A stretch of DNA of 64,000 nucleotides, taken from positions 558,001 through 622,000 of the forward strand of contig NZ_JAPEPO010000002.1 of assembly GCF_026340095.1 (NCBI RefSeq). The letters are read 5' to 3'. Within the stretch, counting starts at the first letter, position 1. Each line of letters begins with the position of its first letter. This DNA comes from Streptomyces sp. NBC_01446. GTDB lineage: Bacteria; Actinomycetota; Actinomycetes; Streptomycetales; Streptomycetaceae. Under the pieces are notes generated by a model. The model was given only the letters and a program-made list of their open reading frames with translations. It was not told the DNA's origin and ran no database searches. A program made the translations under genes and the position numbers. Shown here one piece after another: positions 2,228 through 60,834 of the stretch.

Positions 2228-2622
2228 GTGAACGTCTACGAGCGCGCTAATCACCAGTCGGCGTTGAAACACATCGGCAAAGCTGTTGCCGAACGTGAAC
2301 CAGCGGAGACGATCGACGAGTTCGCCCGCCGGAGGACCAGGCGAGAGTGGACTACCTCGGCTTCATCGAGCTGGTCCTCTCCGAAGTGTTCGTCGTCCGC
2401 GACGACCGCCGCTTCTGACAGGGCCTGCGGCTGTCTCTGTTGCCGCACCACAAGACGCTCGACGAGTACGACTTTTCCCTCCAGCCCGACCTCGACCCCG
2501 CAAGGTCGAAGAACCTCGCCACTCTCACGTTTGTCGAGGCAAGGCGAACGCCGCCCTCCTGGGACCGCCAGCGGTCAGCCAGACGCATATCTCTGTCGCC
2601 CTCGCGGTCACAGCCTGCCACG
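2228..2622 (+). pseudogene. IS21-family helper ATPase (IstB) remnant
   Basis: Fragments of an IstB-like protein are readable in three segments. The first is an N-terminal MNVYERANHQSALKHIGKAV. The second is VDYLGFIELVLSE, then LPHHKTLDEYDFSLQPDLDP and KNLATLTFVEA. The third, after a frame change near 2540, is NAALLGPPAVSQTHISVALA. A frame change near 2335, an in-frame TGA at 2416-2418 (where an Arg codon CGA is expected), and decay of the Walker A loop from GPPGVGKT to GPPAVSQT all show it is dead. The C-terminal two thirds (Walker B and beyond) and the partner transposase IstA are missing. Confidence 0.8.
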
Positions 2623-2812
2623 TCCCACATCACGCAGCCCGTGTTGTCCACGCTGGCCTCGGCGAACGACAGTCGGCCTCGGTCGCCGCTCCCGAACCGG
2701 GGAGGTCCGAGCCGGACAACTCCCACGGTGAGAAAACCCGAGGTACTGCCGTCGCCGCCGTCCACTGCATTCAACTCGACCCGGAATACACTCATCCATT
2801 CACCGACCGCTC

Positions 2813-3370
2813 TCAGCGCAGATCGAGCAACATCACGTCATGCAGGTCCGCGCTCTCCCCCCACAGCCGCGCCTCGCCGATCTTGCGGTATCCCCACGCC
2901 CGGTAAGCGGCCGACGCCGCCTTGCTGCCCGGGTGGACGTTCAGCAGCACCCGCTCGGCGCCGATGCCGTCGAGCAGCATCTCGTGCAGACGACGCGCGA
3001 TGCCCTGTCCACGCCACGGTCCGCGCACGGCGAGTTCCATGAGCCCGAAAGTGCGGTGCCCGTCCTCGCGCCGCATGTCCTCGGGTACCGGCTCGGTCAG
3101 TTCGTCCCACCAGCCCGTGTCGGGACCAAGCGGGAAACCGTACGCCATGCCGACCGGCTCGCCGGCCTCACAACGGGCCAAGGTGGCGCGGAACGTGGGG
3201 TTGCGAGCCTGGACAGGAAAGCGGCGGAAGGCGGCAGCGACGTCATCCTCGGTCTCGTTATAAGGAGGCCCGGCGAACGCTTCGGCGTAGATCAGCCTCA
3301 ACGCGTCCACAGCCTGTACTGCGGCCGAGCCGCCCATACGCTCCAACGCGATGACCCCCTGCTGCGCCAT
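2813..3370 (-). CDS. GNAT family N-acetyltransferase
   Basis: The 185-residue protein starts at the ATG at 3370, which has GAGGGGG just upstream; longer upstream frames are less likely. The acetyl-CoA binding segment is LAVRGPWRGQGIARRLHEML (residues about 118-137), the R/QxxGxG/A loop of GNATs, followed by LLNVHPGSKAASAAYRAWGY typical of the C-terminal helix and strand. It should transfer acetyl from acetyl-CoA to an amine; the substrate is unknown. It is divergent from a second, unrelated GNAT gene that begins about 160 bases away. Confidence 0.85.
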   Translation of the reverse strand: MAQQGVIALERMGGSAAVQAVDALRLIYAEAFAGPPYNETEDDVAAAFRRFPVQARNPTFRATLARCEAGEPVGMAYGFPLGPDTGWWDELTEPVPEDMRREDGHRTFGLMELAVRGPWRGQGIARRLHEMLLDGIGAERVLLNVHPGSKAASAAYRAWGYRKIGEARLWGESADLHDVMLLDLR

Positions 3371-3527
3371 GTGGTCCCCCTCGGACGGTCGCCCAATTAC
3401 GCTCACACTCCCCGACAGTGGCACCCACGCCCCAGTCCCGACCTCGACCCTACTCAGGCCACAGTCGACCAGGGAAAGAACAAGAGGCATTCCGCGCCGG
3501 TGTCCCGGTAGAAGGCAGAGTAGGGGC

Positions 3528-4031
3528 ATGTCTACGTACGAGACGATGTCGTTCCGCCTTGAGACCGAGCGGCTGATACTGCGGCCGTGGGTTGAGTCGG
3601 ACGCCGCTGAACTCCGCGCCCTCCACTCCGAACGCGGCAACGGGACGCCCACGGTGGAGTACACCCGGACGCTCATCGCGAAACAGCTCACCGCAGCAGC
3701 GACAACAGGGATTGCCCTGCTGCCCATCCAGCGCCGTGAAGAGGGCGACTTCATCGGCTATTGCGGGTTGATCATCGGCCGCGCCACCGTAGAGGAACCT
3801 GAAATCGCGTATGAGTTGTTCCAGCGCGCGCATGGACGTGGCTATGCCACCGAGGCGGCCGGTGCAGTGCTCGATGCCGCCATTGCGACCGGGCGGAAAC
3901 GGCTCTGGTCGACCGTCGGCACATGGAACACACCGTCGTTGCGTGTCCTTGAGAAGCTCGGGTTCGAGCGGGATCACGTGTCCACGGACGACAGCGGTGA
4001 AGTGGTATGGCTCACACGCTCGTTGCCCTGA
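3528..4031 (+). CDS. RimJ/RimL-type GNAT acetyltransferase
   Basis: The 167-residue protein begins at the ATG at 3528. The N-terminal TERLILRPWVESDAAELRAL is the classic opening of RimJ/RimL-like acetyltransferases. ELFQRAHGRGYATEAAGAVL (about 102-121) carries the acetyl-CoA loop, and WNTPSLRVLEKLGFERDHV is the conserved C-terminal block. Family members acetylate N-terminal residues of ribosomal proteins or small amines such as antibiotics; which applies here cannot be said. It lies between the divergent GNAT gene and a stretch of transposase remnants. Confidence 0.85.
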   Translation: MSTYETMSFRLETERLILRPWVESDAAELRALHSERGNGTPTVEYTRTLIAKQLTAAATTGIALLPIQRREEGDFIGYCGLIIGRATVEEPEIAYELFQRAHGRGYATEAAGAVLDAAIATGRKRLWSTVGTWNTPSLRVLEKLGFERDHVSTDDSGEVVWLTRSLP

Positions 4032-4075
4032 CGCGGGGTCGTCGCGCCCCGGGACTGCATGCTCACGTGATCGAG

Positions 4076-4246
4076 TGCGCTCAGGCGGAGTAGGCGGCTT
4101 GACGGCAGTGGCGGGCCGGCTCGGGATCGGGCTTGGAAACGGCGACGCCAGTGGGACAATTCGAGCCGGTGGGCCGTGTCGTGGATGCGCTGGACAACGA
4201 GGGCGATGAACAGGCGGACGATCTTTTCGCAGGTGAGCGGGATCAA
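4076..4246 (-). pseudogene. IS701-like transposase C-terminal remnant
   Basis: On the minus strand the segment IPLTCEKIVRLFIALVVQRI followed by HRLELSHWRRRFQARSRA matches the C-terminal end of IS701-like transposases in actinomycetes (consensus close to LTxxEIRxLFxAL then HWSxWRRRHQARAR). The upstream part of the gene is absent or out of frame and no catalytic residues remain. The reading frame runs past the expected stop. The identification rests on this short conserved tail only. Confidence 0.55.
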
Positions 4247-4365
4247 CTAGTCCGGGCCGGGCGGCGGGTGTGCTCTGTCGGCGGTCACGCAATTCGGCTC
4301 TGTCGGAGAGCTCGTGACGCCGCGCGGCTGAACTGGCATATATCGAGAACGCGGTTCAGGGGCTT

Positions 4366-5034: not shown

Positions 5035-6366
5035 CTACCTTGCGGTGGCGGGCTTGACGCGCTTTACACGCCTGACGACTGCCCTCCCGGCAGCCGGGAT
5101 GAGCGCGTGGCCCGTCCGGTACAGGTGCAAGATGTTGCGGGCCGCGTTGAAATCGGCGTTGCCCGACCATCCGCAGTCCGGGTTCTTGCATACGAACGTG
5201 GCCTGGTCCTGTCGGCTGCCGGGCGTGATGAAGCCGCAGGCAGAGCAGCGTCGGGAGGTGTGCGGGGCGGGCACCTTGTGCAGGGTGCCGCCGTACCGGC
5301 CGGCCTTGTACGTCAGCATCGTGACCGTCCTGCCCCATGCCTCCTGGCTGATGGAGCGGTTGAGTCCGGCCTTTTGGGCGACGCCTGTCCCCGGCTCGGC
5401 GATGGTGCCCCGAGCGGACTTGACCATGTTCGTGATGGTGAGTGCTTCGACCACTATGACGCCGTACGTCTGGGCGAGGCGGGTGGTCGTCTTGTGCTGC
5501 CAGTCCTGGTGTCGTCGCGTGGCTTTTGCGCGCAGCCCTCGGATCTGGTCATAGGTGTGGTTCAGGCGGCGGCTGGTGCGCTCGCCGGGCTTGCGGTGTG
5601 TCTTGCGCTGGGCGGCCCGGCGCTCCAGGCGCCAGAGCTTGCTCTTTTCCATGGTGTTCAGCCACTTGTCACGGTCGGCGCTGCCATCCGGGAGGCGAGG
5701 CGCACGCCCGTGGTCCTGGTGGTTGCCGTCCGAGAGGGCGAGGGGCAGGTTCACCCCGGCGTCGATTCCGACCTGTGCCCCCGGGTGGGATGCGGGCCTG
5801 GCTTCGAGGCTCTGCACACGGAAGGCGATGTGCCATCCCAGGTGGTCCTTGACCAGCCGTGCCCCGGTGATCCGGTTGTCGGCGTTCGCCTTGTTGCCCA
5901 CGGGGAGGTCTTTGGTCCAACGGAAGCGGACACGGCCGGCCTTGGGAATGTTGGCCATGCCCCAGCGGCGGTGCACCCGCTTGATCTGGAGGTCACGGCC
6001 CTGCGGGATGTCCACGCTCATCACGGACCGGAACCGGCCCTTGAAGTTCGGAGCATCGGCGCGGCCGTCCCAGAAGTTCTTCCAGGCCTGGAAGTACGTC
6101 TTGAGGACCGCTTGCGCGGCCTGCGCAGGAAGGACGGCGAGGAAATCGATCTCCTTGCGGGCCTGGCGTATCGCGGCGTCCGCGTTCGCCAGAGTCCGCT
6201 TCTCCTTCGGCATCATCTGCCACCACGCGTGCAGGCAGTTCCACATCGCGCGGGCGGCATGCGCCTGCTCATCGATGAGGAGAGTCTCGGCAGGAGACAA
6301 TGCCAGTCGGGCACGGTGCCCGAACTGCCGCTTCTCCCAACCAAGTTCACCCACAGTGATCACCAT
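5035..6366 (-). CDS. tnpB: RNA-guided endonuclease TnpB (IS605 OrfB family)
   Basis: The 443-residue protein is full length for TnpB. A RuvC-like catalytic triad is visible: Asp in QVGIDAGVN (about residue 200), Glu in VVEALTITNM (about 305) and Asp in GNADFNAARNI (about 404). The zinc ribbon between them has CSACG and CKNPDC. The N-terminal domain (RARLALSPAETLLIDEQAHA) begins close to the ATG at 6366. TnpB cuts DNA opposite a guide RNA copied from the right end and flanking DNA, next to a TTGAT-like motif. No frameshift or lost catalytic residue is seen, in contrast to the neighbouring tnpA. Confidence 0.9.
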   Translation of the reverse strand: MVITVGELGWEKRQFGHRARLALSPAETLLIDEQAHAARAMWNCLHAWWQMMPKEKRTLANADAAIRQARKEIDFLAVLPAQAAQAVLKTYFQAWKNFWDGRADAPNFKGRFRSVMSVDIPQGRDLQIKRVHRRWGMANIPKAGRVRFRWTKDLPVGNKANADNRITGARLVKDHLGWHIAFRVQSLEARPASHPGAQVGIDAGVNLPLALSDGNHQDHGRAPRLPDGSADRDKWLNTMEKSKLWRLERRAAQRKTHRKPGERTSRRLNHTYDQIRGLRAKATRRHQDWQHKTTTRLAQTYGVIVVEALTITNMVKSARGTIAEPGTGVAQKAGLNRSISQEAWGRTVTMLTYKAGRYGGTLHKVPAPHTSRRCSACGFITPGSRQDQATFVCKNPDCGWSGNADFNAARNILHLYRTGHALIPAAGRAVVRRVKRVKPATAR

Positions 6367-6380
6367 ACTACCGGTGGTCC

Positions 6381-6779
6381 ATGCCGCCGTGATGGAAGCC
6401 GAACCCCGATATCAGAACCGGCCGGCACATCGTCCCCAACCCGCACGTCATGCGGGAGGCGTGCACGGACTTCGAGGCCGAGCTGAAGCAGTTCAACGAG
6501 GACAACCACCTGCACCTGCACTACCCGCCCACGGTCCAGCTCTCCAAGCTGGTCAACTCCCCCAAAGACATCTCCTCCAGGCGTCTGCGCCAGGAGTACG
6601 ACACGCACATCCGCCGCCACCTGTGGGGCGGCCACTTCTGGTCCGGCTCCCACTTCGCAGGAAGCTGCCACGGTGCGCCCCTGACCGTCGCACGCCAATA
6701 CATCGACAACCAGAAGCACCCCGTAGGCCGAGGTGAACAGTGCCGACCCGTGCTCACCCGCGAGTCAGAGCAGTCCTGA
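6381..6779 (+). pseudogene. tnpA: IS200/IS605 transposase TnpA, inactivated
   Basis: From the ATG at 6381 the frame reads MPP, then TGA (6390-6392), then WKPNPDIRTGRHIV. A functional relative would have an Arg codon at the TGA. Directly after NPHV the sequence jumps to MREACTDFEAELKQF, so about 30 residues of the N-terminal core are missing. The HLH of the HUH motif (NHLHLHYPP), the SKLVNSPKDISSRRLRQEY region and the helix with the presumed catalytic Tyr (ARQYIDNQK) remain. The nonsense codon plus the internal deletion make activity very unlikely. Confidence 0.85.
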
Positions 6780-6793
6780 GATGGCCTTCACCC

Positions 6794-6809
6794 CCGGCGT
6801 AAACGCCGG
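6794..6809. repeat. Left-end hairpin of the IS605-type element
   Basis: CCGGCGT (6794-6800) and ACGCCGG (6803-6809) form a perfect short hairpin just beyond the tnpA stop. It sits inside a weaker outer pair of TGGCC and GGCCA. Its place next to the TTGAT motif fits a left-end recognition structure. Confidence 0.5.
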
Positions 6810-6865
6810 AGCACTGGCCAAGATCAAAAGGTAGAGCGCGAGGTCGACGGTCCCGGTCTTGTTCG

Positions 6866-7573
6866 TCAGACGATGACGGGGACCGTCTCGGCGCGGTTGG
6901 TGGACCAGTTGGTGACGATCGGCTTGTCGACGTTGGCGGTGTCGGGGAGCTTGAGTTCGGCGGGGTTGGGGTCGTTGTCGCTGATGGCGATGATGACGTT
7001 CTCGAACTGCTTACCGGCATTGCTCTTGGTGGTCTTGGGGCTGATACCGGTGTATGCGACGGCGGAGCCAGTGAGCTTGATGGGGTCTTCGCCACCCTGT
7101 CCGACGGGGGAGGCGACGCCGTCGGCGCCGGAGCCGAAGGACACACTGGGCGTGTTGACGTCCAGGTAGCAGGTGATGCCGGACTTGGCCTTGGCGGTTA
7201 CGAGGTAGTAGCCGCCGGCCTGGGACTCCGCGGTGACCGTGAAGTCCAGGTCGTTGGTGCCGCAGGACTGTCCGTAGCCGCTCTTCCCGCCGTCGCCGGA
7301 GCCGCTCTTGCTGTCGTCGCCGGAGTCGGACTTGTCGGCGGAGCCATTGGAGTTGGAGCCGCCGGTGGAGGAGCCGCTGGTGGAGGGGCTTTCGCTGGAG
7401 GAGCTGTCGCTCCCGCCGCTGCCGGCGGAGGCGACGGCAGATGGGGTCGCGGAGCTGCCGGCGTCCGCGGTGTCGTCGTTGTCGCAGGCGGTGGTGGTGG
7501 CGGCGAGGGCCGTCACGGCCGCGGCGGCCAGGACGAGACGGGCGGAACGGGTGGCGAGACGCGAACGCATCAT
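6866..7573 (-). CDS. DUF4232-like lipoprotein with Ser/Gly-rich linker
   Basis: The protein of 235 residues has an Arg-rich N-terminus, a hydrophobic Ala-rich segment, and a lipobox-like TTTAC with Cys at about residue 30. A Ser/Gly/Asp-rich low-complexity linker follows (about 36-98). The C-terminal domain has CGTNDLDFTVTAESQAGGYY and TCYLDVNTPSVSF, matching the DUF4232 pattern of paired Cys residues. It is probably tethered to the outer face of the membrane; function is unknown. ATG codons at 7573 and 7570 are both possible starts. Confidence 0.75.
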   Translation of the reverse strand: MMRSRLATRSARLVLAAAAVTALAATTTACDNDDTADAGSSATPSAVASAGSGGSDSSSSESPSTSGSSTGGSNSNGSADKSDSGDDSKSGSGDGGKSGYGQSCGTNDLDFTVTAESQAGGYYLVTAKAKSGITCYLDVNTPSVSFGSGADGVASPVGQGGEDPIKLTGSAVAYTGISPKTTKSNAGKQFENVIIAISDNDPNPAELKLPDTANVDKPIVTNWSTNRAETVPVIV

Positions 7574-7848
7574 GATCTCCAGCGGCTGTCGGTTGCGGTG
7601 TTTCTGCTGACACCGATGACACTAGGGTCGAGTCGATCCTCAAATGATCCTGTGAATGTCCGGGTTCTGTCTCAGCAACTTCGGTTCCGGGAAGTGGCGT
7701 TGGATTGCACCAACCCCAGCTCAAGGGGCATGTCCGGAACCAAGCGTTAGAATCGCGCCATCGCAGGATCAGATGGTTTCGCGATCAGGACGCCCACGCC
7801 CACCACTCCCGGGAACTGGCCGGCGCCAGCAAAGAAGACACGCGGGAG

Positions 7849-7998
7849 TCCACGCCCCCGCAGGTCTGGGGCTCTCCCGTCTTCCGGCACGTGAACCGGG
7901 TGCTCACCCTGGTCTGGGGCGGCGTCTTCGTCGCCACGGCCGTACTCGGACTGGTTGCGCTGCACACGACGTCCGGTGCCGACTGGTTCAACTGGGTG
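7849..7998 (+). pseudogene. Truncated membrane-protein fragment next to a TnpB element
   Basis: The frame ending against the element reads SPVFRHVNRVLTLVWGGVFV then ATAVLGLVAL and DWFNWV. This is a single good membrane segment with a flanking motif seen in small actinobacterial membrane proteins. The frame is cut at the right end of the TnpB element and closes with a few codons supplied by the element. The rest of the gene is not seen on the far side. Confidence 0.4.
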
Positions 7999-8776
7999 AC
8001 GTCCTCCCCGCCCTGAGGGACGGGGATTGCCCTATGAGGGGGTTCGGCCGGTCGCCCGGCTTACGGGTTCCTGTTTCACGGACCGGCTGGTGCCGAGGTC
8101 TCCACAGGCTGACACGGGCTGTCCGCCCGCGTGTCGGATGTTCTTCGCCGCGTTGACGTCGGCATGCTCCGCGTGTCCGCAGCCTGGGGCTTTGCACCGA
8201 AACACCGCTTGGCTCTCACGGTTGTGTCCGGCGACGAAGCCGCAGGCGGAACACCGCTGCGACGTGTAGGCGGGATTCACCTTCACCACGACCGTGCCCG
8301 TGTACCGGGCCGCGCTGGTCAGGGAGAGTTCGAGACGGTGCCACCCCTTGTCGAGGATCGCCCGGTTCAGACCCCGCTTCTGCGCGACCTGGCGGCCCGG
8401 TTCCGCGAGGGTGCCGGAGGCGGAGGCGGCCATGTTCCGGATCCTGAGGTCTTCGAGGACGACCAGAGCGTTCTTCGCAACGATCCGGGATGCCATCTGC
8501 GCGCAGAAGTCTCCGCGCCGATCCGACACGCGGCCCATGACCGTGTTCATAGCGGCGATCACCTTGGCCCGGTTGGTACTGCCGCGCTTGGACCGGGCCA
8601 GGCGCTGTTGCAGCCTGCGATACCGGGTGCTCTCGCCAGACGTGATGAACACCCGGTTGTGGAAGTCGCCGTCCGAGGTGACAGCAGCACTCTTCACCCC
8701 CCGGTCGATCCCGACCGACGTGTCCGGCATGGCGTGCCGCTCCGGAGTGACGGCCTGGTCGTCCACGAGGAAGGAA
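7998..8776 (-). mobile_element. 5'-truncated copy of a stand-alone TnpB element
   Basis: From 7998 to 8776 the sequence is nearly identical to 59579-60359. It comprises the right end with its hairpin (8006-8025, CCCCGCCC pairing with GGGACGGGG) and the 3' three fifths of tnpB. The match stops sharply after GGAAGGAAA at 8776, and the sequence beyond is unrelated. The 5' part of the gene and the left end are gone, so this is a deletion derivative. Confidence 0.85.
8032..8766 (-). pseudogene. tnpB: TnpB, N-terminally truncated
   Basis: About 244 residues remain, and all three catalytic residues are still present: VGIDRGV, VLEDLRIRNM and HADVNAAKNI, with the zinc ribbon CSACG and CKAPGC. About 160 N-terminal residues that bind guide RNA and recognise the target-adjacent motif are missing compared with the copy at 59614-60834. 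Differences from that copy are few (for example NRVF for DWVF, AASASGTL for TASASGTP). An internal start could give a short nuclease-domain protein, but no ribosome binding site supports this. Confidence 0.85.
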
Positions 8777-9203
8777 AGACGGACAGTGTGCGCACTGCGG
8801 GCTGCTGCTCAACCGCCCGGATCGTGCAGCCCCCATCCTTCGCTCAGCACTCTCCCACCGTGCCCGAAGTCCACCGACGCGAACGAGGTCCCCATGCACG
8901 AGGCGTCGAGTTCGCGTCCGGGGTTTCTTCAGGGGCTAGTTGGGTGTTCCTGGCCGAACACTGCTGTCCGCCTCCACTCTCCCGAGGCCGACTGCTGACC
9001 CCATGGCTCGCGCAGCGAAAGTCATAGTCCGCGCTTCCGCGCGCACTGTATTTGCTCGCCGGCTGCGGTCCGCGAGGGAGGGTCAGGCTGATCACCGGAA
9101 GCACCTCACGGTTCCCGCACTGCCGCCGGCCACCGCCGCCATGGGGCCAGCATTCCTGCCCCATCGTCGCCGGGAAACGGACATGGGTTAGCTCTTCCTC
9201 GGT
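8777..9203. other. Unassigned stretch beyond the truncated TnpB copy
   Basis: No supported gene. The plus-strand frame immediately after the junction reads GQCAHCGLLLNRPDRAAP, a Cys-x2-Cys motif reminiscent of the zinc-finger/HNH end of group II intron proteins, and stops at 8937. It is too short and lacks any partner motif to be called. The remainder holds no recognisable coding sequence. Confidence 0.4.
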
Positions 9204-9968
9204 TCAGCCCTGAGCGGACAGAAAGTCCTCGACAGCGGCGGCGAACTGGGCCGGAGCATCGTGATGCACGACATGACCGGCAGGCAGCTCGGCGAGGCAG
9301 GCCTTGCCGGCACGACGGGTGATCATTTCCCCGGCATGGGCGGCCGCCAGCTCATCGCTCCGTGTTCCACGGATCAGCAGAGTGGGGCAGGCAACCGCTG
9401 TCCAGTCCTGCCAGTGGTCACCATTGAGTGCCATCTGCGACGCCACCGTGTGCTCGATGTCGAACGAGAATCCCCAGCCGCCCTCCGCCCGACGGAAGGA
9501 ACACTTCAGATAGGCAGCCGCCGAGCCCAGTGCGGCCACCAGATCCTGGCGCGAAGGCGCATCGCGGGGCAGGCGCAAGGTGAATGACCAGTCACTGTCC
9601 ACCACCGCGCCGATGTCCTCAACGATCAGCGCACAGACCCGATCCGGCTGCCGGGCAGCGTACTGGTATGCGTTCACTCCGCCCAGCGAGTGGCCCAGCA
9701 CCGCCACCGGGCCGATGCCCAGGTGCCGATGGAAGGCAGCCACATCAGCGACGTAATCGTCTCGCTCGTAACGCTGAGCACGATCGGACTCACCGTGCCC
9801 GCGTTGATCGAGCGCGATCACCCTCCAGCGCGGCGCCAACGCCTGAGCCAGAGGCGCGAACGCCGACGCCTCGTTGTAGTGCCCATGCAGGGCCAGAAGC
9901 GGAGTACCCGGACCTCCGAAGTCCAGATACGACAGTTTCCGTCCGCCGACCACGAAGAACTCACGCAT
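9204..9968 (-). CDS. Alpha/beta hydrolase
   Basis: The protein is about 254 residues long when started at the ATG at 9968 (MREFFVVGGRKLSYLDFGG); a GTG at 9998 would add ten residues. It has the oxyanion segment LLALHGHYNEASAF, LDQRGHGESD, the nucleophile elbow VLGHSLGG (Ser about 101), an acidic residue in TLLIRGTRSDEL, and the catalytic His in ELPAGHVVHHDAP. It is a soluble esterase/lipase-type hydrolase; substrate unknown. It stands alone between IS debris and the ABC transporter gene. Confidence 0.85.
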   Translation of the reverse strand: MREFFVVGGRKLSYLDFGGPGTPLLALHGHYNEASAFAPLAQALAPRWRVIALDQRGHGESDRAQRYERDDYVADVAAFHRHLGIGPVAVLGHSLGGVNAYQYAARQPDRVCALIVEDIGAVVDSDWSFTLRLPRDAPSRQDLVAALGSAAAYLKCSFRRAEGGWGFSFDIEHTVASQMALNGDHWQDWTAVACPTLLIRGTRSDELAAAHAGEMITRRAGKACLAELPAGHVVHHDAPAQFAAAVEDFLSAQG

Positions 9969-10182
9969 GATGGGGATGCTATGCGGCAGCACTGACACCC
10001 GATGGCTGACCAGCAGCCAACAGAGAAGGAGCCGCCCTCCTCTCAGTCAGAGCGAGCTCAACGGCTCCGCTCTGGTTCACGTCGCCACCATCCCTTGTGC
10101 AGTTCACGTTGTGGAAGCGGCGACGTGGGACCCTCCCTTCACGCCGCCGCTGTCTTCAGAGTCAGCGACCGTTGGGCAGAGC

Positions 10183-12075
10183 TCAGCGATCCTTGGCCAG
10201 GGCCAGGAGATCCGCGAAAAGCCCTCCGGCGTCTGCCAGGTCGTCGTAGCGGCCCACTTCGATGATCCGACCGTGCTCCATGACCGCGATGCGGTCGGCG
10301 ACCTTGGTGTTCTCGAGTTGGTGCGTGACCACGACCGTGATGCGGTCACAGGCGCCGCCCTTGATCTTCTCGAAGATCTGGTGTTCGCCACGGGCGTCCA
10401 TCTGTGACGTCGGTTCGTCGAGAATGAGCAGTTCAGGGCGCCGGTAGATCGCGCGGGAGCAGGCCAGGCGCTGCCACTGCCCACCGGAGAGCTCGGCGCC
10501 GCCGAAGACCTCCCTGGCGAGCAGGGTCTCGAGGCCGTGGGGCAGGTCGTCGACTGCCTCGCGCATACCGACTGCGTCGATCGCGTCCCAGACGGGAGCG
10601 TCGTCGTGGGTGCGGGGCTGGCCGAGGGTGACGTTCTCGCGGACACACAGAGGCCATTGGGCGAAGAGCTGCGGCACCAGGCCGGTGCGCGCCCAGACGG
10701 TGTCCTGGTCAACGGTGGCCAGGTCCCTGCCGTTCCACAGGATGCGTCCCTTGTCGGCCAGGTAGATGCCGGTGATCAGGCGCAGGAGGGTGGATTTGCC
10801 GCTGCCGTTCTCGCCGACGATGGCGAGGATCTCGCCCCGGCGCAGGGTCAGGGACACCCCGTCGACGGCCGGCAGGTCTTTCCCGGGGTACTGGTAGACG
10901 ACGTTGTCGAACCGGATCTCCTCCACCTTGGCCGGCGCGGGCAACACGCCGCGCTGCGGGGCTCGTTGAGCGGCATCGTCGAGGAACGCCTGCATGTCGG
11001 TGAGGTAGAGGCTGGTGTGGAACAGGGCGGCCCCGTTGATGACCACCTGGGACAGTGCGCCCAGGGTGGTCTGCACGGCGACGACCGCGGTCGCTGCGAT
11101 GGCCAGCTCGATGCGGCCGGTGACCGCCAGCCAGGCGAGGGCCGCCCAGGTCAGGAGCAGGAAGAAGCCGCCGGTCGTGGCGGACAGCAGGGTGATGCGC
11201 AGCGTGCGGGGCGCGACGGCCAGCAGGCGGCGGTCGATGCGTTCGGACAGAGACCTGTACCAGAACAGCAGGTAGCCCGTCATGCCGTTGGCGCGTACCT
11301 CGTCACCGTGCTTGGGCGTGGTGGCCCACCAGCGCATCATGTGGCGCACGTTGCGGTCGCAGACGTTCGCGTAGTGCATCTCGTAGTCGACCCGGGCGGA
11401 GAGGAGCGCGCCGATTCCGGCCGGCAGGACCGCAAGGATGAGCAGCGGAAGCATCGCCCAGTGCAGGGCCGACAGCACGCCGCTCGCTGCGATCATCCTG
11501 ATCAGAGCGGCCATGAACCGTTGTGCGTCGTTCACCATGACGTGGGTGCGGAGCACGCCCATCCCTGCGGCCTCCTGACGGTCTGCGAACCCGTCCTTGG
11601 CGTTGGCCGCGGACTCGACCCGGCACACGGCCTCGACCAGCGCGGTGTCGGCGTACGTCGTCAGCAAGGGCGTCAGGCGCCGGTCCGCGTACGAGGCGAG
11701 CGAGCTGGACAGGCGACCGAGTGCGGTCGTGACGGTCACGACGAGAAGTGCGGGCAGTGCCTCGTGGAGGCGGTCGTCGACGGTTCCGGTTCCGAGGATC
11801 GACTGCATCGCGTGGGCGATCGCGGCCAGGCCCACCGCGGCGGCGACGCCGGTGACGAGCTGGCAGGCGATCAGGAGGAGCACGGCCACGCGGTCGAGCT
11901 GCCAGGCCATGCGGGCGATGCGGCGCAGGACGGACGGCAAGCGGGCGCACATGCGCGTGAACGAGACATCGCCGAGCGGGTTGACGGAGTATTCACCGCT
12001 GTAGCTGATCTCCGCGGGCGGCGGTGGTGGAGGTGTGACGAGGCGGACGGGCCTGCTGTCTGTGGGCAACTGCAC
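10183..12075 (-). CDS. ABC exporter, fused membrane and ATPase domains
   Basis: The 630-residue protein has an N-terminal Pro-rich cytoplasmic stretch and a six-helix membrane domain (about residues 50-350, with hydrophobic helices such as VAVLLLIACQLVTGVAAAVG). The ATPase domain carries Walker A GENGSGKST, a Q-loop VPQLFAQ, signature ELSGGQWQRLA, Walker B LLILDEPTS and the switch His in VVVTHQ. It is one half of a type IV exporter that would work as a homodimer, or as a heterodimer with an unlinked partner. No peptide precursor or maturation gene is adjacent, so the cargo is unknown. The start shown is the first in the frame. Confidence 0.9.
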   Translation of the reverse strand: MQLPTDSRPVRLVTPPPPPPAEISYSGEYSVNPLGDVSFTRMCARLPSVLRRIARMAWQLDRVAVLLLIACQLVTGVAAAVGLAAIAHAMQSILGTGTVDDRLHEALPALLVVTVTTALGRLSSSLASYADRRLTPLLTTYADTALVEAVCRVESAANAKDGFADRQEAAGMGVLRTHVMVNDAQRFMAALIRMIAASGVLSALHWAMLPLLILAVLPAGIGALLSARVDYEMHYANVCDRNVRHMMRWWATTPKHGDEVRANGMTGYLLFWYRSLSERIDRRLLAVAPRTLRITLLSATTGGFFLLLTWAALAWLAVTGRIELAIAATAVVAVQTTLGALSQVVINGAALFHTSLYLTDMQAFLDDAAQRAPQRGVLPAPAKVEEIRFDNVVYQYPGKDLPAVDGVSLTLRRGEILAIVGENGSGKSTLLRLITGIYLADKGRILWNGRDLATVDQDTVWARTGLVPQLFAQWPLCVRENVTLGQPRTHDDAPVWDAIDAVGMREAVDDLPHGLETLLAREVFGGAELSGGQWQRLACSRAIYRRPELLILDEPTSQMDARGEHQIFEKIKGGACDRITVVVTHQLENTKVADRIAVMEHGRIIEVGRYDDLADAGGLFADLLALAKDR

Positions 12076-33139: not shown

Positions 33140-35107
33140 TCAGTAGATTCGGCGCCCGCCCGCGTCCGGGATTCCGGACTTGCGCAGGAAGTAGCTGTTC
33201 ACGTGGTCGCGCCACTCGCGGGCGCTGCGCAGCTGCTCGTCGTACAGCTCGGCGACCCGGGCGTGCCGGGCGGGCGCCACCAGATCGGCCAGCGTCGCCC
33301 ACACTCGCTGTGCTGCCTGGGCCTCCTCGACGCCTTCGAAGTGGGTGTCGTAGATGTGCTGGATCACGGTCTTGCCGCTGTGCAGGACGTGCCCGTACGG
33401 GACGTGGTGGAAGAACAGGAGCAGCTCGTCGGGGCAGCTCTCGGGTGTCTCGTACGTCTGTGACCAGGGTTTGGCGTACTGGGCCGCGTACCCGGTGCCG
33501 GTGGCGCGGCTGCGGTCGACGCCGATGCCGTCGCGGTCGGCGAAGTGGTAGGTGCCCCAGGGGCTGTACTCGTACCCGTCGACGCTGGGCCCGTAGTGGT
33601 GTCCGGGCTGCACCATGAAGCCGACGCCGAGCGGCGCCGTGTACTTCTCGTACGTTTCCCAGGAGCCGCGCAGTACCGCACGGAGGCCGGAGCGCAGCCG
33701 CTCGGGGTCGGCGGTCTCCTCCGGGGTGAACGTCAACTCGGTCCACTCGTCGAGGAGTTGCTGCGGATCGGCGTCCGGCTGCCATGCCAGGCGGCCGAAC
33801 GCGTACAGGTTGAACTGGGCGAGCGGGTGCCCGGTCCAGTAGGGGTCGGCTCCGGCGTTCGAGACGGCCACCAGGCCGCCACCGTCCGCGAGTTGGCCGA
33901 CGGTGGTGCCGTCCTCGCCCTCGGGCCGGAAGCCGAGCACTTCGGACCACATCGGGGCGAGCGCGCACACGTGCCGTTGTTGCCCGGTGTACTCCTGGGT
34001 GGCCTGCAGCTCGACCGCGACCCGGGTGCGGGGCAGGGCGCCGATGACCGGCGAGACGGGTTCGCGGACCTGGAAGTCCATCGGTCCGTGCTTGACCTGG
34101 AGCACCGCGTTGTCCTTGAACTGGCCGTCGAGTGCGGCGAAGTGGTCGTAGGCGGCGCGCGCCCGGTCCGTGGTCCGGTCGCGCCAGTCCTGTAGGTGGT
34201 TGTAGACGAAGGCCCGCCAGTGGACGGTGCCGCCGTGCGGGGCGAGCGCGTCGGCGATCAGGTTCGCGCCGTCGGCGTGACTGCGCCCGTAGGCGAAGGG
34301 GCCCGGCTGTCCTTCGGAGTCGGCCTTGACGACGAAGCCGCCGAAGTCAGGAATGTGCGCGTACACGTGGTCGGCGGCAGTGCGCCACCAGTCCCGTACA
34401 CCGTCGTCGAGCGGGTCGGCGGTGTCGAGCGCGCCCAGGACGACGGGTGCGGCGAAGCTCACGGAGAGGTGGGTGCGGATGCCGTACTCCCCCAACTCTC
34501 CCGCGATGGCGGCCACTTCACCGATGCGGTCGGTGAGGAGCCGGGCCTCGCCCCCATGGACGTTGACGTTGTTGACGCAGACGGCGTTGATCCCGCAGGC
34601 CGCGAGGAGCCGTGCGTACGCGCGGACCCGGTCGCGGTCCGCGCGCGCCCGTCCGTCTTCCCAGAACAGCGAGCCGCCCGCGTAGCCGCGCTCGACCTGG
34701 CCCATCACGGGATGCACGTCGATGTTGTCCCAGTGGTTGAGCATGCGCCTGGAGAGGGCGGGGCGGTGGGTCTGCTCGGGGGCGTCGGTGAACGCGGCGG
34801 CGCCGAGGCGCACGACATGGAAGAAGCCGTACAGGAGGCCGGCCGGAGCGGCGGCCGTGACGGTGGTGCGCCCGCGGGACCTCGTCAGAGTGAAGCCCTC
34901 GGGGCCGGTGTCGGCATCGCCGTCGAGTCGGAACACGACGTCTCCGTTACCGTGCAGTGCGCCGACGTTGGCCTGGGCGTACGCGACTTCGGCGCGCAGT
35001 GTGTCGACGAGCGGGCCGTCGCCTTCGATCGTGACGCGCCGTGATCCGATGCCACGCAGCGCCTCGTCGGGCAGCCAGGCGTGGTCGATCCCGCTCGGGC
35101 CGGTCAT
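33140..35107 (-). CDS. GH67 alpha-glucuronidase
   Basis: The 655-residue protein starts at the ATG at 35107 overlapping the GH2 stop (ATGA). Landmarks of GH67 are LNHWDNIDVHPVMGQVERGY and SLFW, then AACGINAVCVNNVNV, VVKADSEGQPGPFAYGRSHA (about 260-279), MDFQVREPVSPV, ELQATQEYTGQQ and GVGFMVQPGHHYGPSVDGYE. The length is that of the family. GH67 enzymes cut methylglucuronic acid from the non-reducing end of short aldouronic acids made by GH10, and act inside the cell; no signal peptide is present. This ties the locus to glucuronoxylan. Confidence 0.95.
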   Translation of the reverse strand: MTGPSGIDHAWLPDEALRGIGSRRVTIEGDGPLVDTLRAEVAYAQANVGALHGNGDVVFRLDGDADTGPEGFTLTRSRGRTTVTAAAPAGLLYGFFHVVRLGAAAFTDAPEQTHRPALSRRMLNHWDNIDVHPVMGQVERGYAGGSLFWEDGRARADRDRVRAYARLLAACGINAVCVNNVNVHGGEARLLTDRIGEVAAIAGELGEYGIRTHLSVSFAAPVVLGALDTADPLDDGVRDWWRTAADHVYAHIPDFGGFVVKADSEGQPGPFAYGRSHADGANLIADALAPHGGTVHWRAFVYNHLQDWRDRTTDRARAAYDHFAALDGQFKDNAVLQVKHGPMDFQVREPVSPVIGALPRTRVAVELQATQEYTGQQRHVCALAPMWSEVLGFRPEGEDGTTVGQLADGGGLVAVSNAGADPYWTGHPLAQFNLYAFGRLAWQPDADPQQLLDEWTELTFTPEETADPERLRSGLRAVLRGSWETYEKYTAPLGVGFMVQPGHHYGPSVDGYEYSPWGTYHFADRDGIGVDRSRATGTGYAAQYAKPWSQTYETPESCPDELLLFFHHVPYGHVLHSGKTVIQHIYDTHFEGVEEAQAAQRVWATLADLVAPARHARVAELYDEQLRSAREWRDHVNSYFLRKSGIPDAGGRRIY

Positions 35108-38100
35108 GAGGCCGCCGCATCGAGCGCGACGATCCCGCACGCCCCGGCGGGTTCGCCCGGCCTGCGGCTGGTCAGGTCCAGGCGGAGACGGCTGCCGTGC
35201 ACCGCGTCGAAGGTGATGACGGTCGGCTCACCGGACGCCGCCGCCCAGTCGATGTCGGCGTCACGCACGGCGACATAGCGCTTGCCGTCCCAGACCGACA
35301 CGTCGACCGAGGCGGGCAGGGAGTGTTTCGCGTCGACCGTGAAAGAGACTTCGATCCGGCCGATCTCGCGTTCCTGGGCCCATGCCACGGACACCCAGTC
35401 GGTGGGCCGGGCGCCGTCGAAGGCGGGCAGCAGGGCGGTGGCCGCCTTCTGGAAGGAGTTGGACCACTGGGTCGCGGGGTCCCCGTCGAGGATCGCGGCG
35501 GGGAGAGTGCCGGTTGCGCCGGAGTAACTCGCGTCGGCGAGTGGGTACTTGGATGCTCCAGGACCGGGGTCGGGGGCGAAGGGTTCGGCGGGCGTGACGG
35601 GCCCGCCCGCCGGTCCCGCCACCCGCACGGAGACCTTCCCGGCGCGCAGCCCGTCGGCGGTGGCCGTGACGGTCAGCGCGCCCGGCGCGGTTCCCGCCCG
35701 CACCATGGCGAGCGCGAGGCCGTGGAAGGCGGTGCGTGTACTGGCCTGGTACCGCTCGGCGCTCTCCTGCCTCCCGTTGTCCAGACCGGCCAGCCCACCG
35801 CCCTTCACGGCGAATTCGAGGAGGTGCTCGGCGTCGGGGACGACCACGCCGCGCGTGTCGACGACCTCGGCCGTGACGAAGACCAGCGAACGCCCGTCGG
35901 CTGCGACAGACTCGCGGTCGGCGGTCAGTCGCACGCCGTGCGGCGTCCCTGCGGTGCGCAGCACATCCGTGGCCACGACTTTCCCGCCCGCGCGGGCGAC
36001 GGCCTTCAACTCGCCTGCCGCGTACGGAACCTTCCACGACAGATGCAGCTTGCCTGCGCTGCCGTTCGGCGACGTGTAACTGCCGGGGTAGGGACCGGAA
36101 GTGACCGTCTTGTCGTCATGCGTCGCTTCCGTGGTCTCCAGGTAGGCGCGCCCGTCGACGGTCTTCTTGGCGTCGAAGGAACGCACGCCCAGGGAACGGC
36201 CGTTGAGGAGGAGTTCGACCTCGGCGACGTTCGCGTACGCCCATACCTCCACCTCCTGGCCGGGCTTGTGCGTCGTCCAGTCCATGGGCAGCAGGTGCAC
36301 CATCGGCTCGTCGGTCCACTGGCTGCGGAAGAGGTGGTACATGTCCTTGGGGAACCCGGCCGTGTCGACCGCACCGAAGAACGACGCCTTCACCGGGAAC
36401 ACGTTGTACGGGGTCGGTTCGCCGATGTAGTCGATGCCGGACCACAGGAACTCGCCCGCGAAGAAGCGCCGGTCGCGGTCCTTCTTCAGGCCGTACTCGC
36501 CGCTCATCGTCCAGGAGGCGAGGTTGTTGTCGTACGACGAGGTGGCGCGCCGGCCCGGGGTGTGGTTCTCCCCGGTGTTGAGGTGCTCGGACTCCTGGTA
36601 CGCGCCACGGGTGGACGTCTCCGACGACGACTCGGACTCGAAGAGGAACAGGTGCGGGTAGCGGGCGTGCAGCGCGTCGACGGACGCGGCGGTGTTGTAG
36701 TTGAGGCCGAGGCCGTCCAGCTCGGCCAGGATCAGGTCCGCGGGCGACCCGGCGGCGGGCAGCGAGCGGTACTTGTCGGAGCCGATGACGACGGGCCGGG
36801 TCGTGTCGATGGCCTTGATGTCGGCGACGAGCCGCCGCGCCATCTCCACGCCTTCGGCGCGGGTCGAGTCGGGGATCTCGTTGCCGATCGACCACATCAG
36901 AACGGCGGGCGAGTTGCGGGCGGCGCGCACCATTTCGGCGATGTCGGCGTCACTGTGGGCGTCGAAGAACCGGCCGTAGTCGTAGAGGTTCTTTCCGGTG
37001 CGCCAGCAGTCGAAGGCCTCCACGAGCATGACGATGCCGAGGTCCTCGCAGGCCTCGATCACCTCGGGGGCGGGCGGGTTGTGGGACGTGCGCAGCGCGT
37101 TCACGCCCATGGACTTCATGATCGTCAGCTGGCGGCGCACGGCGTCGGGCTGGACGGCCGCGCCGAGCGCGCCGAGGTCGTGGTGGAGGTCGACGCCCTT
37201 GAGCTTGGCGTGGGTGCCGTTGAGCGAGAAGCCGTGGTCCGGGTCGAAGGTCGCGTGCCGCACGCCGAACCTTGTGCGGTAGGTGTCGACGGTGCGGCCG
37301 TCCACACGCAGGTCGGTGACGAGGGTGTAGCGGTGGCCCGGGGTGTCGATGGACCACAACTGCGGCTCACGGAGGGTCATTTGGCCGTGCGCCGTGGCCG
37401 GGTCGGAGCCGACGTCCTTCAGTACGGATTCGGTGCGGGCGACGCGGCGGCCCTTGGCGTCGCGGAGGGTGGAGACGACGGTCACGGCCGACGCGGTCGC
37501 ACCGGAGTCGTTGACGACGGCCGTGCGGACGTCGACCTTCGCGTATCCCTTGTCGAGGGTGGCGGCGAGGTCGGGCGTCGTCACGAAGGTGCCCCAGCGC
37601 TGGACGTGCACCGGTTCGGTGATCACGAGGCGGGCGCGGCGGTAGATGCCGCTGCCCGAGTACCAGCGGCTGCTGGGCAGCCGGTTGCGGACCTCGACCG
37701 CGAGGACGTTGCTGGTGGCGCCGTCGGCGTGCAGCAGGTCGGTGATGTCGTGGGCGAACCCGGTATAGCCGTAGGGGTGGTTGCCGACGAGATCGCCGTT
37801 GACGTAGACGTTCGCGTCCATGTAGACGCCGTCGAACTCGACGGAGATCCGCTTGCCCGCATAGGCGGCGGGGACGGTGAACTTCTTGCGGTACCAGCCG
37901 AGTCCGCCAGGCAGGAAGCCCGTGCCGCTGGTCGTGTTGTGTTCCGTCGTGGGGGTCTGCTCGATGCTCCAGTCGTGCGGAACGGCGACCATCCGCCAGT
38001 GCGCGTCGTCGAACCCGGGCTGCTCGGCGTCGGCGTAGGCTCCCGTCGGATCGGCGATGCCGTCAGGGCTGACGAGCGCGAACCGCCAGCCGTCGTCGAG

Positions 38101-38229
38101 GCCGACGGTGCGGCGGCCGACCGGTCCGGTGCGGTCGGCGGCGGCCGCGCCGGGTGCGGGCAGGGCGAACGTCCCGGCCATGGAGCCGGCCGCGCTCGCG
38201 GCCAGCACGGTTCTACGGGTGACATGCAT
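35104..38229 (-). CDS. Secreted GH2 beta-galactosidase-like enzyme with discoidin domain
   Basis: The 1041-residue protein has a twin-Arg signal (TRRTVLAASAAGSMAGTFAL). The GH2 sugar-binding domain (LDDGWRFALVSPDG, WYRKKFTVP, GSGIYRRARL) comes first. The barrel follows, with LKGVDLHHDLGALGAAV, acid/base Glu in WSIGNEIPDS (about 449) and the nucleophile expected in FLFESESSSET (about 530). Beta-sandwich domains including DUF4982-like sequence are next, and the protein ends with an F5/8 type C-like C-terminus (YPLADASYSGATGTLP). It probably removes beta-galactosyl groups outside the cell. It heads a two-gene operon with GH67. Confidence 0.85.
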   Translation of the reverse strand: MHVTRRTVLAASAAGSMAGTFALPAPGAAAADRTGPVGRRTVGLDDGWRFALVSPDGIADPTGAYADAEQPGFDDAHWRMVAVPHDWSIEQTPTTEHNTTSGTGFLPGGLGWYRKKFTVPAAYAGKRISVEFDGVYMDANVYVNGDLVGNHPYGYTGFAHDITDLLHADGATSNVLAVEVRNRLPSSRWYSGSGIYRRARLVITEPVHVQRWGTFVTTPDLAATLDKGYAKVDVRTAVVNDSGATASAVTVVSTLRDAKGRRVARTESVLKDVGSDPATAHGQMTLREPQLWSIDTPGHRYTLVTDLRVDGRTVDTYRTRFGVRHATFDPDHGFSLNGTHAKLKGVDLHHDLGALGAAVQPDAVRRQLTIMKSMGVNALRTSHNPPAPEVIEACEDLGIVMLVEAFDCWRTGKNLYDYGRFFDAHSDADIAEMVRAARNSPAVLMWSIGNEIPDSTRAEGVEMARRLVADIKAIDTTRPVVIGSDKYRSLPAAGSPADLILAELDGLGLNYNTAASVDALHARYPHLFLFESESSSETSTRGAYQESEHLNTGENHTPGRRATSSYDNNLASWTMSGEYGLKKDRDRRFFAGEFLWSGIDYIGEPTPYNVFPVKASFFGAVDTAGFPKDMYHLFRSQWTDEPMVHLLPMDWTTHKPGQEVEVWAYANVAEVELLLNGRSLGVRSFDAKKTVDGRAYLETTEATHDDKTVTSGPYPGSYTSPNGSAGKLHLSWKVPYAAGELKAVARAGGKVVATDVLRTAGTPHGVRLTADRESVAADGRSLVFVTAEVVDTRGVVVPDAEHLLEFAVKGGGLAGLDNGRQESAERYQASTRTAFHGLALAMVRAGTAPGALTVTATADGLRAGKVSVRVAGPAGGPVTPAEPFAPDPGPGASKYPLADASYSGATGTLPAAILDGDPATQWSNSFQKAATALLPAFDGARPTDWVSVAWAQEREIGRIEVSFTVDAKHSLPASVDVSVWDGKRYVAVRDADIDWAAASGEPTVITFDAVHGSRLRLDLTSRRPGEPAGACGIVALDAAAS

Positions 38230-38307: not shown

Positions 38308-38937
38308 TTAGTCAAGGGCCTTACCAAATATGGTGTCGAGGAACTCGTTGCCTGTGAGGCTTTCCGCCACGGCGCGAGCGAGGAGCGCGTGCCCCTCGTC
38401 GCCCGGGTGGACGCCGTCGACCAGGTGCGCCGGGGTGAGCAGGCCGACGCCGGGCAGCAGGGCGAGCCGGTCGTCGCCGCCGCGGAGGGTGTCGCGTGTG
38501 GCCCGTTCGACGGCGTCGCGGAGCTCGGCGAGGGTGGCGCCGAGCGCATTGGGGATCGCTTCGGCATCCGAGCGGCGGACCGGTGAGACGACGAGCAGCG
38601 GCGTGTGCGGATGGCTGGTGCGGACGGCGGCGAGGAAGGCCAGGGTCATCTCGTACAGCAGGCCCGCCGTGTGCGGTGTGCGCGACCAGCAGTTTACAAG
38701 GCGCTGGCGGCGCACCTTGCGGTGCAGCTTCGCGACCTTCTCGACCGCTCGCCGGTGGTTGGCTGTCCGCTTGTCACGGCGCACACGCGGAAACCTCGAC
38801 AGGGCCCGCTGTGCGGCTTCCATCTTCGCGGCGCTCTTCGCCCGGTAGGCCCGCTGTTCGGCGGCGCGCTGACCGTGCGGATGGGAGCCCTGCCAGGGCT
38901 TCGGTACGTCGATCTCGTACAGCACATCGAGGTCCAT
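38308..38937 (-). other. Mosaic ORF: flavin oxidoreductase start + TnpB middle + SGNH hydrolase end
   Basis: One uninterrupted frame of 209 codons joins three unrelated pieces. Residues 1-32 (MDLDVLYEIDVPKPWQGSHP then HGQRAAEQRAYR) are the start of a luciferase-like flavin monooxygenase. Residues 33-80 (KMEAAQRALSRF, NHRRAVEKVAKLHRKVRRQR) are an internal TnpB segment. Residues 81-209 (LLYEMTLAFLAAVRTSHPHT, LVDGVHPGDEGHALLARAV) are the C-terminal part of an SGNH/GDSL esterase with its Asp-x2-His-type block. Each parent is truncated, so an active enzyme is unlikely. It probably arose by insertion followed by deletion. The SGNH part fits an esterase formerly belonging to the hemicellulose locus. 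Confidence 0.75.
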
Positions 38938-39340
38938 TGCGGGGCTCGTCCGACGGGTGGCCTGCCTGGGTGCCGTGCGCGGTGCGGACGATGCGCCGAA
39001 TCTGACGAAGTGTCAAGGGACGCCGGGTCACGCCAGGCCCTGCGTCCGACCCCCGCCTGGCCTCCGTCCCCATCGCTCCGGCGTCGGGGAAGTCCGGCAT
39101 CCCGTCGGCGTTGACCGAAATCAGGAGTAACTGCGGCGGAAGGCGGCACGGTGCACGGCGACGACAAGATCCGCGGGGGCAAGCTCGCCGTCGACGACGT
39201 GGATTCGTCGCGCAGAAGCCGGGGAGCGCGGCGGGCCGGCACCGACAGCATCGCCGTCAGATGTGGAACCAGCTGATGCGTGCCCCCGGGGAAGACGTTG
39301 ACCACCCGGGTCGCTCACTTGCGACGGCCCGGCGAGTCGG
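38938..39340. other. Stretch without supported gene
   Basis: About 400 bases separate the mosaic ORF from the HAD gene. A minus-strand frame contains IHVVDGELAPADLVVAVHRA near 39125-39195 and another contains VVNVFPGGTHQLVPHL near 39260-39305. Both look like coding remnants but match no family I recognise. Confidence 0.4.
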
Positions 39341-59578: not shown

Positions 59579-59730
59579 TGACGTCCTCCCCGCCCTGAGG
59601 GACGGGGATTGCCCTATGAGGGGGTTCGGCCGGTCGCCCGGCTTACGGGTTCCTGTTTCGCGGACCGGCTGGTGCCGAGGTCTCCACAGGCTGACACGGG
59701 CTGTCCGCCCGCGTGTCGGATGTTCTTCGC
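59579..59730 (-). ncRNA. Probable guide RNA (omega RNA) of the TnpB element
   Basis: In TnpB systems the RNA is made from the 3' end of tnpB and the right end, and the guide is the host sequence beyond it. Here the right-end hairpin (59589-59608) sits directly after the stop codon. The guide would read ATCTGCCGCTACATCG on the minus strand just past 59579. The 5' limit is not defined by the sequence and is given only roughly. Confidence 0.35.
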
Positions 59731-60834
59731 CGCGTTGACGTCGGCATGCTCCGCGTGTCCGCAGCCTGGGGCTTTGCACCGGAACACCGCTTGGCTCTCA
59801 CGGTTGTGTCCGGCGATGAAGCCGCAGGCGGAACACCGCTGCGACGTGTATGCGGGGTTCACCTTCACCACGATCGTGCCCGTGTACCGGGCCGCACTGG
59901 TGAGGGAGAGTTCGAGACGGTGCCATCCCTTGTCGAGGATCGCCCGGTTCAGGCCCCGCTTCTGCGCGACCTGGCGGCCGGGTTCCGCGGGGGTGCCGGA
60001 GGCGGAGGCGGTCATGTTCCGGATCCTGAGGTCTTCGAGGACGACCAGAGCGTTCTTCGCAACGATCCGGGATGCCATCTGCGCGCAGAAGTCTCCGCGC
60101 CGGTCAGACACGCGGCCCATGACCGTGTTCATAGCGGCGATCACCTTGGCCCGGTTGGCACTGCCGCGCTTGGACCGGGCCAGGCGCTGTTGCAGCCTGC
60201 GGTACCGGGTGGTCTCGCCAGACGTGATGAACACCCAGTCGTGGAAGTCGCCGTCCGAGGTGACAGCGGCACTCTTCACCCCCCGGTCGATCCCGACCGA
60301 CGTGTCCGGCATGGCGTGCCGCTTTGGAGTGACGGCCTGGTCGTCCACGAGGAAGGAAACAAACCAGTGCCCGGACCTGCGGCTGACCGTCGCGGAGCGG
60401 ATCTCCCCACCCAGGGGGCGCGAGAAGCGGAAGCGGACCCATCCCAGTTTCGGGAGCTTCACGCGACCCCACTTGCGGCCCAGGCGCTCCACGGTGATCA
60501 GACTCCCGGCAGGGAACCGGAACGAGGGAGACCAGCGGGCCTTGGACCGCCACCGCACCTTGAATGTGCCGTGGTCGCGGCACGCCTTGTCGAGGTCCCG
60601 GAGGGTCTGCTGCAACACGTGCGACGGCGCGGCCTTCAACCACCCGTGCTCGCGCTTGGCGTCGGCCAGCTCGCCGGCCTGCGGGACGTAGTTCATCCAC
60701 GCGCCCCGGCGCCGGTATGCCCGCCGCTGCTCCAGACCGGTGTTCCACACCGACCGGCAGATATCAGCGAACTCCTCACACGCCGCAGCCTGACCGGCCG
60801 TCACCTCAAGCCGGTACCTACGACCAGTCAGCAC
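59614..60834 (-). CDS. tnpB: RNA-guided endonuclease TnpB, stand-alone
   Basis: The protein has 406 residues from the GTG at 60834, which follows GGAGGGGGG; a TTG at 60852 would overlap that site. It starts VLTGRRYRLEVTAGQAAACE. The nuclease triad is Asp in SVGIDRGVKSA (about 182), Glu in VLEDLRIRNM (about 266) and Asp in HADVNAAKNI (about 363), with zinc-ribbon CSACG and CKAPGC. It appears intact. It is a different lineage from the TnpB at 5035-6366 and about 95 percent like the truncated copy at 8032-8766 by eye. Confidence 0.92.
   Translation of the reverse strand: MLTGRRYRLEVTAGQAAACEEFADICRSVWNTGLEQRRAYRRRGAWMNYVPQAGELADAKREHGWLKAAPSHVLQQTLRDLDKACRDHGTFKVRWRSKARWSPSFRFPAGSLITVERLGRKWGRVKLPKLGWVRFRFSRPLGGEIRSATVSRRSGHWFVSFLVDDQAVTPKRHAMPDTSVGIDRGVKSAAVTSDGDFHDWVFITSGETTRYRRLQQRLARSKRGSANRAKVIAAMNTVMGRVSDRRGDFCAQMASRIVAKNALVVLEDLRIRNMTASASGTPAEPGRQVAQKRGLNRAILDKGWHRLELSLTSAARYTGTIVVKVNPAYTSQRCSACGFIAGHNRESQAVFRCKAPGCGHAEHADVNAAKNIRHAGGQPVSACGDLGTSRSAKQEPVSRATGRTPS

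Follow-up and report, generated by a model that had tools for sequence, protein, structure and literature searches.

A 209-codon open frame joining parts of three genes in Streptomyces sp. NBC_01446 is probably an end-joining repair scar with a captured TnpB fragment

The window, i.e. the whole 64,000-nucleotide stretch of Streptomyces sp. NBC_01446 DNA analysed here (G000:C2:558001-622000 of a 10.86 Mb genome in four contigs), contains on its minus strand a reading frame at 38937-38308 that begins with ATG and encodes 209 amino acids with no internal stop. It joins the start of an LLM-class flavin monooxygenase (LLM) gene, an internal fragment of a TnpB gene and the end of an SGNH/GDSL esterase gene. 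We consider it likely that this frame is not the product of a gene family but the scar of an end-joining repair in which a scrap of TnpB was captured. The features of the locus are the following.

33140 to 35140, minus strand: GH67 family gene, 666 aa, also colinear in strain VRA16 (Pfam and BLASTN)
35104 to 38229, minus strand: GH2 gene, 1,041 aa, downstream of the fusion and colinear with the intact relatives (Pfam GH2 domains)
38308 to 38694, minus strand: C-terminal remnant of the SGNH/GDSL esterase, starting from the Asn of the GTN block (alignment to parents)
38695 to 38698, minus strand: joint 2, TGTA between the TnpB match (to 38699) and the SGNH match (from 38694)
38699 to 38843, minus strand: internal TnpB fragment of about 145 bp (BLASTN match 38846-38699, 148 bp)
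38841 to 38843, minus strand: joint 1, GGG common to the SID14478 LLM gene and TnpB, a 3-nt microhomology
38841 to 38937, minus strand: first 32 codons of the LLM gene (similarity to the SID14478 LLM, BLASTN)
38938 to 39020, minus strand: upstream region that remains from the lost LLM gene (82% to VRA16 locus L065, 3524-3691, over 39020-38843)
39138 to 39203, plus strand: start of a divergent lipoate-protein ligase gene, about 18 codons, broken off (79% to L065 3360-3427; translation)

A reading of the sequence alone had assigned the frame to a flavin oxidoreductase, TnpB and an esterase, and piecewise matches bear out all three origins. The LLM piece equals the LLM of Streptomyces sp. SID14478 at 31 of 32 residues and 90 of 96 nucleotides, and residues 1-32 of the fusion are 74-97% identical to LLM starts in all 18 loci with a displayed hit. 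Residues from about 81 to 195 correspond to the SGNH esterase; in the genus search the top 27 foreign matches have 50-74% identity and weaker ones lower values. These similarities to the parents, like that of the TnpB piece described below, are much stronger than chance would give, which does not hold for the frame's being open. The esterase remnant keeps the Asp-His block DGVHPGDEGH, at fusion residue 174, but has lost both the nucleophile block, GDS, and the block NLGYAG: in the parent GDSI stands at residue 140, the first retained residue is 202 of 332, and no GDS occurs in the fusion. At its tail the window has one base fewer than VRA16, so that the last codons are in different frames. The fusion retains 32 of 371 LLM residues and 48 TnpB residues. 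Neither it nor its N-terminal piece matches PF00296 (Bac_luciferase) at E values up to 1, whereas the intact LLM parent does so at 2.6e-55. Judged from these retained parts, no activity of the LLM, TnpB or esterase type is expected of the fusion.

Uninterrupted parent genes were sought at the same site in relatives and were found in two, SID14478 (L063) and VRA16 (L065), where an intact LLM gene is followed by a short-chain dehydrogenase (SDR) gene, the SGNH gene and GH2. In SID14478 the order is lipoate ligase (divergent), LLM (1446-2561), SDR (2558-3367), SGNH (3364-4362) and GH2 (from 4448), and VRA16 has the same gene order. The parents carry the expected domains (LLM, PF00296; SDR, PF13561; SGNH, PF13472 and PF14606). 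The GH2 protein of SID14478 shares 85.7% identity with residues 32-1039 of the window GH2, and that of VRA16 82.9% over the full length; within the nucleotide alignments that begin in the SGNH remnant, GH2 is 82.5% identical to L063 and 82.6% to L065. The VRA16 match to the window continues through GH67. In eight members of the genus the start of LLM and the end of SGNH share a contig and a strand and are separated by about 1.9-2.8 kb.

The alignments also define what is missing. Window 39203-38841 matches L063 1232-1542 and window 38694-35053 matches L063 3967-7627; against L065, window 39020-38843 matches 3524-3691 and window 38694-33001 matches 6166-11855. Since BLASTN is colinear on both sides, positions 1543-3966 of L063 (2,424 bp) are absent from the window as a single block, comprising 91% of the LLM gene, the whole SDR gene and the first 201 of 332 esterase residues. 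Together with the TnpB insert of about 145 bp, this block supports the earlier proposal of an insertion plus a deletion. The LLM and esterase parents are neighbours in one LLM-SDR-SGNH run, and therefore a single contiguous block with the whole SDR gene has gone. The loss of SDR had escaped the sequence-only reading, as had the internal nature of the TnpB piece, which retains no element end.

The trio LLM-SDR-SGNH was surveyed by tblastn (E 1e-10, at most two stretches per gene, stored flanks only) in 32 loci (L060-L091), which had been fetched by their match to the fusion and are therefore biased towards carriers of LLM or SGNH, the intervening SDR being independent of that bias. It lies on one strand in 21 of them, 19 of which are distinct because L061/L085 and L062/L079 are the same contigs, while GH2 adjoins in two of the 32 within the stored flanks. 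The 11 loci without the trio have LLM and SGNH with no close SDR between them (L066, L067), LLM on the opposite strand (L069), only the LLM start (L074 and L086, which record the same contig), LLM at the end of a contig (L076), a broken LLM (L084), or SGNH only (four loci, L088-L091). By these counts the esterase is no less a member of the trio than of the hemicellulose locus. An extra esterase did once stand at this locus, as had been supposed and as both intact relatives indicate, with the nuance that it was at least as much part of the trio. The window's genome holds no intact LLM of this type (the best long match has 34% identity), and no second SGNH match was found in it. Elsewhere the LLM match in L086/L074 (G002) is limited to the first 58 codons, and the LLM gene in L084 (G039) is internally deleted with a broken frame; the LLM gene thus appears to have been lost repeatedly in Streptomyces, although the search used the LLM start as query and so favours finding remnants of broken LLM genes.

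The TnpB fragment is 96.6% identical to G000:C1:558298-558445 in the window's own genome, where it corresponds to residues 220-267 of a 409-aa frame. It represents positions 798-945 of an element of about 1,427 bp, whose edges are inferred from where the similarity between copies stops, and neither element end is present. Eight copies were compared with the fragment; the other seven are 90-95% identical, and an exact (100%) donor was not found among them. As the sequence-only reading had proposed, the fragment is of a lineage other than that of the window's three other TnpB matches (5125-6312, 8131-8781 and 59713-60819): the donor-type protein is only 31-33% identical to these, and they are absent among the fragment's 17 hits. 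Its lineage has several near-full elements plus incomplete ones in the genome. Among 40 matches scored, of 213 initial candidates, the isolated element-internal pieces, judged by coordinates, are the window fragment and C2:381364-381484 only; the remaining scored matches extend to an element end, have a partner piece from the same element, or represent conserved parts of other TnpB genes. At C2:381364-381484 (L103), element positions 727-847 are directly followed by 26 bp of positions 1364-1389, and this is possibly a second scar of the same kind.

The TnpB family in this genome shows further features of its own. There are 127 matches to NF040570, located on C1, on C2 and, in the case of C3, largely near both contig ends. 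Four copies have a 1,832-bp gap at element position 1164/1165 (C3:7773639/7775471, C1:686960/685128, C1:464127/462295 and C3:197799/195967; L105, L106), one of them being only 78% identical to the query element. In both copies read the gap encodes the same IS110-family transposase (PF01548, PF02371), which suggests a site-directed insertion into tnpB; such insertion is the expected behaviour of bridge-RNA elements. A different gap of about 1.45 kb lies at element position 110/111 in two copies, C1:387495/388944 (L107) and C2:430551/432001, and a larger gap of 2.7 kb occurs in the copy at C1:688015/690746. Rfam gave no match on three TnpB-neighbour loci (L107 included).

The in-phase joints that had been placed near 38842 and 38698 agree with the limits of homology. 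At joint 1, LLM homology stops at 38841 against L063 or at 38843 against L065, and since VRA16 has GCG at the position of the SID14478 GGG, the microhomology amounts to 1-3 nt. The TGTA at joint 2 cannot be assigned as a block to either parent: its first T is possibly a TnpB variant, the G matches TnpB and the A is possibly SGNH, leaving 1-4 nt unassigned. With at most 3 nt of microhomology at one joint and 1-4 unassigned nucleotides at the other, both are as expected of end joining. The genome has four matches to Ku, one over the whole model and three partial.

From these data the following course of events may be proposed. At the ancestral site, as the relatives show, LLM, SDR, SGNH and GH2 followed each other on one strand, with GH67 next in VRA16. 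One or more breaks in LLM and SGNH would have led to the loss of the single block of about 2.4 kb seen in the alignment. The ends would then have been rejoined by non-homologous end joining, capturing a TnpB piece of about 145 bp from elsewhere in the genome, either copied or broken off its source gene. Both joints would have fallen in frame by chance, producing a 209-aa frame that opens at the start codon of LLM and finishes with the end of SGNH.

Openness of the frame had been regarded as unusual, a view that the simulations do not uphold. Random same-strand joins of these genes were open in 17.5 and 16.6% of cases in two runs, and either-strand joins in 16.8%; joins in native phase at both joints made up 11.1%. 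Because about 17% of random joins are open and the scar looks young, the open frame needs no selection. The TnpB piece has a dS of 0.087 over 135 nt to its nearest copy, as compared with 0.63 for the SGNH remnant and 0.27, over a short 96 nt, for the LLM piece, both against SID14478, which suggests, if rates are comparable, that the insert arrived long after the divergence from SID14478. At 3.5% divergence, under uniform substitution, a frame of this composition would gain no new stop with a probability of about 0.62. In Tajima comparisons the window had more unique changes in eight of ten cases, which are non-independent; the highest chi-square was 2.1 and none was significant. The dN of the SGNH remnant to L063 is 0.227, against 0.232 between L063 and L065, and of the columns that are otherwise invariant, two carry a change unique to the remnant, a number within the range of 0-3 seen for the remaining 15 sequences. 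Relative-rate and dN/dS analyses of this one sequence of about 115 codons, a weak test, showed neither clear relaxation nor clear constraint. The lack of significant acceleration fits a young scar and is not in itself proof of a loss of function.

The same three-part structure in distant species would have spoken for one real protein family; it was looked for and was not found in the genomes and plasmids searched. The joint-1 pattern, with two mismatches allowed, occurred in three of 392 genomes, exactly in the window's own only, and its backwards control in none. The joint-2 pattern, with one mismatch allowed, occurred in 22 of 392, again exactly in the window's own only, and its inexact matches look like chance because the backwards control matches in at least as many genomes. 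In 150 genomes of the genus, the window's own among them, none of the foreign matches extends across the three pieces; three start at residues 66-68 and extend just a few residues into the TnpB part. Among the matches listed, none spans the three pieces in 100 relatives by DNA (up to four candidates scored per genome) or in the scan of genome contigs. Among 72,556 plasmid records a coverage of 80% of the query was reached nowhere, and the best 10 of 12 matching records match the TnpB part only. VRA16, which aligned with fusion residues 15-202 at 48%, was considered as a fusion relative and rejected, as it carries the intact genes. A conserved three-part protein family is consequently rejected, no relative spanning all pieces having appeared in the genus, DNA-relative, contig, junction-pattern or plasmid searches. 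Among the literature listed, no account of this locus appeared.

Other origins have to be weighed against a single repair event. Elements often insert and then suffer a deletion next to them, and a TnpB-type transposon of about 1.4 kb could have entered LLM or SGNH or the space between them, a later deletion or deletions taking its ends and the flanking genes; the abundance of the family and the mixture of near-full and incomplete elements of this very lineage speak for such a history. It requires, however, that deletions ended on both sides within one small element, and no element end is found at either joint. A single event accounts more simply for a host loss that forms one continuous interval and cuts into both outer genes, and we regard the two-step history as possible but unlikely. 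Homologous recombination between two TnpB copies was rejected by reasoning, since a full-length TnpB would remain. That the frame results from an assembly or sequencing error is scarcely conceivable: the assembly is near complete (four contigs, 99.99% completeness, 2.1% contamination), and colinear flanks, repair-like joints and a TnpB piece diverged from every scored copy are unlike a mis-join of existing copies.

There remains the question of whether the frame is used. A functional new chimeric protein kept by selection would agree with three pieces in native phase, with 209 open codons, with an LLM piece differing from SID14478 at one residue of 32 and with an SGNH remnant that has not significantly accelerated. 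Against it stand the absence of a complete catalytic centre (no esterase nucleophile, and LLM and TnpB pieces of 32 and 48 residues), the loss of the GGAG core, the frequency with which random joins stay open in an apparently young scar that had little time to gather stops, and the absence of the chimera from the other genomes searched; we find it highly improbable. If transcribed, the fusion would be at most a leader to GH2. Whatever its origin, the in-frame scar might be maintained because translation that runs unbroken from the start of LLM to the end of SGNH couples or protects GH2 expression downstream, a suggestion to which we give little credence. If it were true, the deletion would have brought a hemicellulase-type gene under the promoter of LLM, behind a chimeric leader peptide without enzymatic function.

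The region upstream of the frame is that of the lost LLM gene. A TTGACACTTCGTCAGAT motif at about 39016-39000 is conserved upstream of LLM in L060, L063, L065, L078, L080, L081, L082 and L084, with a variant in L083, and L061 shows only the motif end within the stretch displayed. It contains a TGAC-N5-GTCA inverted repeat and is possibly a promoter and operator. The GGAG core of a ribosome site precedes LLM in 9 of 14 relatives and is missing in the window; in the other five, which may be leaderless, a TTGACA motif stands near the ATG. Neither of these layouts is present in the window. Further upstream, the lipoate-protein ligase gene, intact beside LLM in L063 and L065, is reduced in the window to a remnant more diverged than the LLM piece, which we interpret as a second, older-looking deletion scar.

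The scar at 38937-38308 is ordinary in kind, unusually clean and well documented here. With intact parents known for both sides, it offers a clean natural example of the type of end-joining scar obtained in the laboratory in Streptomyces. Such scars can mimic new fusion genes, and in high-GC genomes a frame that stays open across one says little for the presence of a gene. A survey of them would allow natural end joining in Streptomyces to be counted by sequence only.

The closest known counterparts are the scars left by I-SceI breaks in the chromosome centre of S. ambofaciens. Microhomologies of 1-6 nt were present in 50% of these scars and added nucleotides in 40%, deletions ranged from 191 to 23,591 bp with two clones having larger ones, three clones carried inserts of 30, 42 and 83 bp, the 30-bp one matching a transposase gene, and inserts in all five insertion events ranged from 30 bp to 18.8 kb (PMC5869714). 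Kan-sensitive clones included only one from lineages without kuA and none from those without ligC/ligD (PMC5869714). The scar analysed here resembles these NHEJ scars in its kb-range deletion, a microhomology within 1-6 nt, few added nucleotides and a short insert; it differs in being natural rather than I-SceI-induced, in an insert of about 145 bp as against 30, 42 and 83 bp in the central region there, and in that the event itself was not watched (PMC5869714).

The LLM-SDR-SGNH run of SID14478 and VRA16 lies at the same site, in the same order and on the same strand, and provides direct relatives of both scar ends; there the run is intact, whereas the window lacks SDR and has both outer genes truncated. 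The middle piece, finally, is 96.6% identical to part of a gene of the RNA-guided TnpB family (NF040570), but unlike such genes it amounts to only about 10% of the element, with neither end and no complete catalytic domain.
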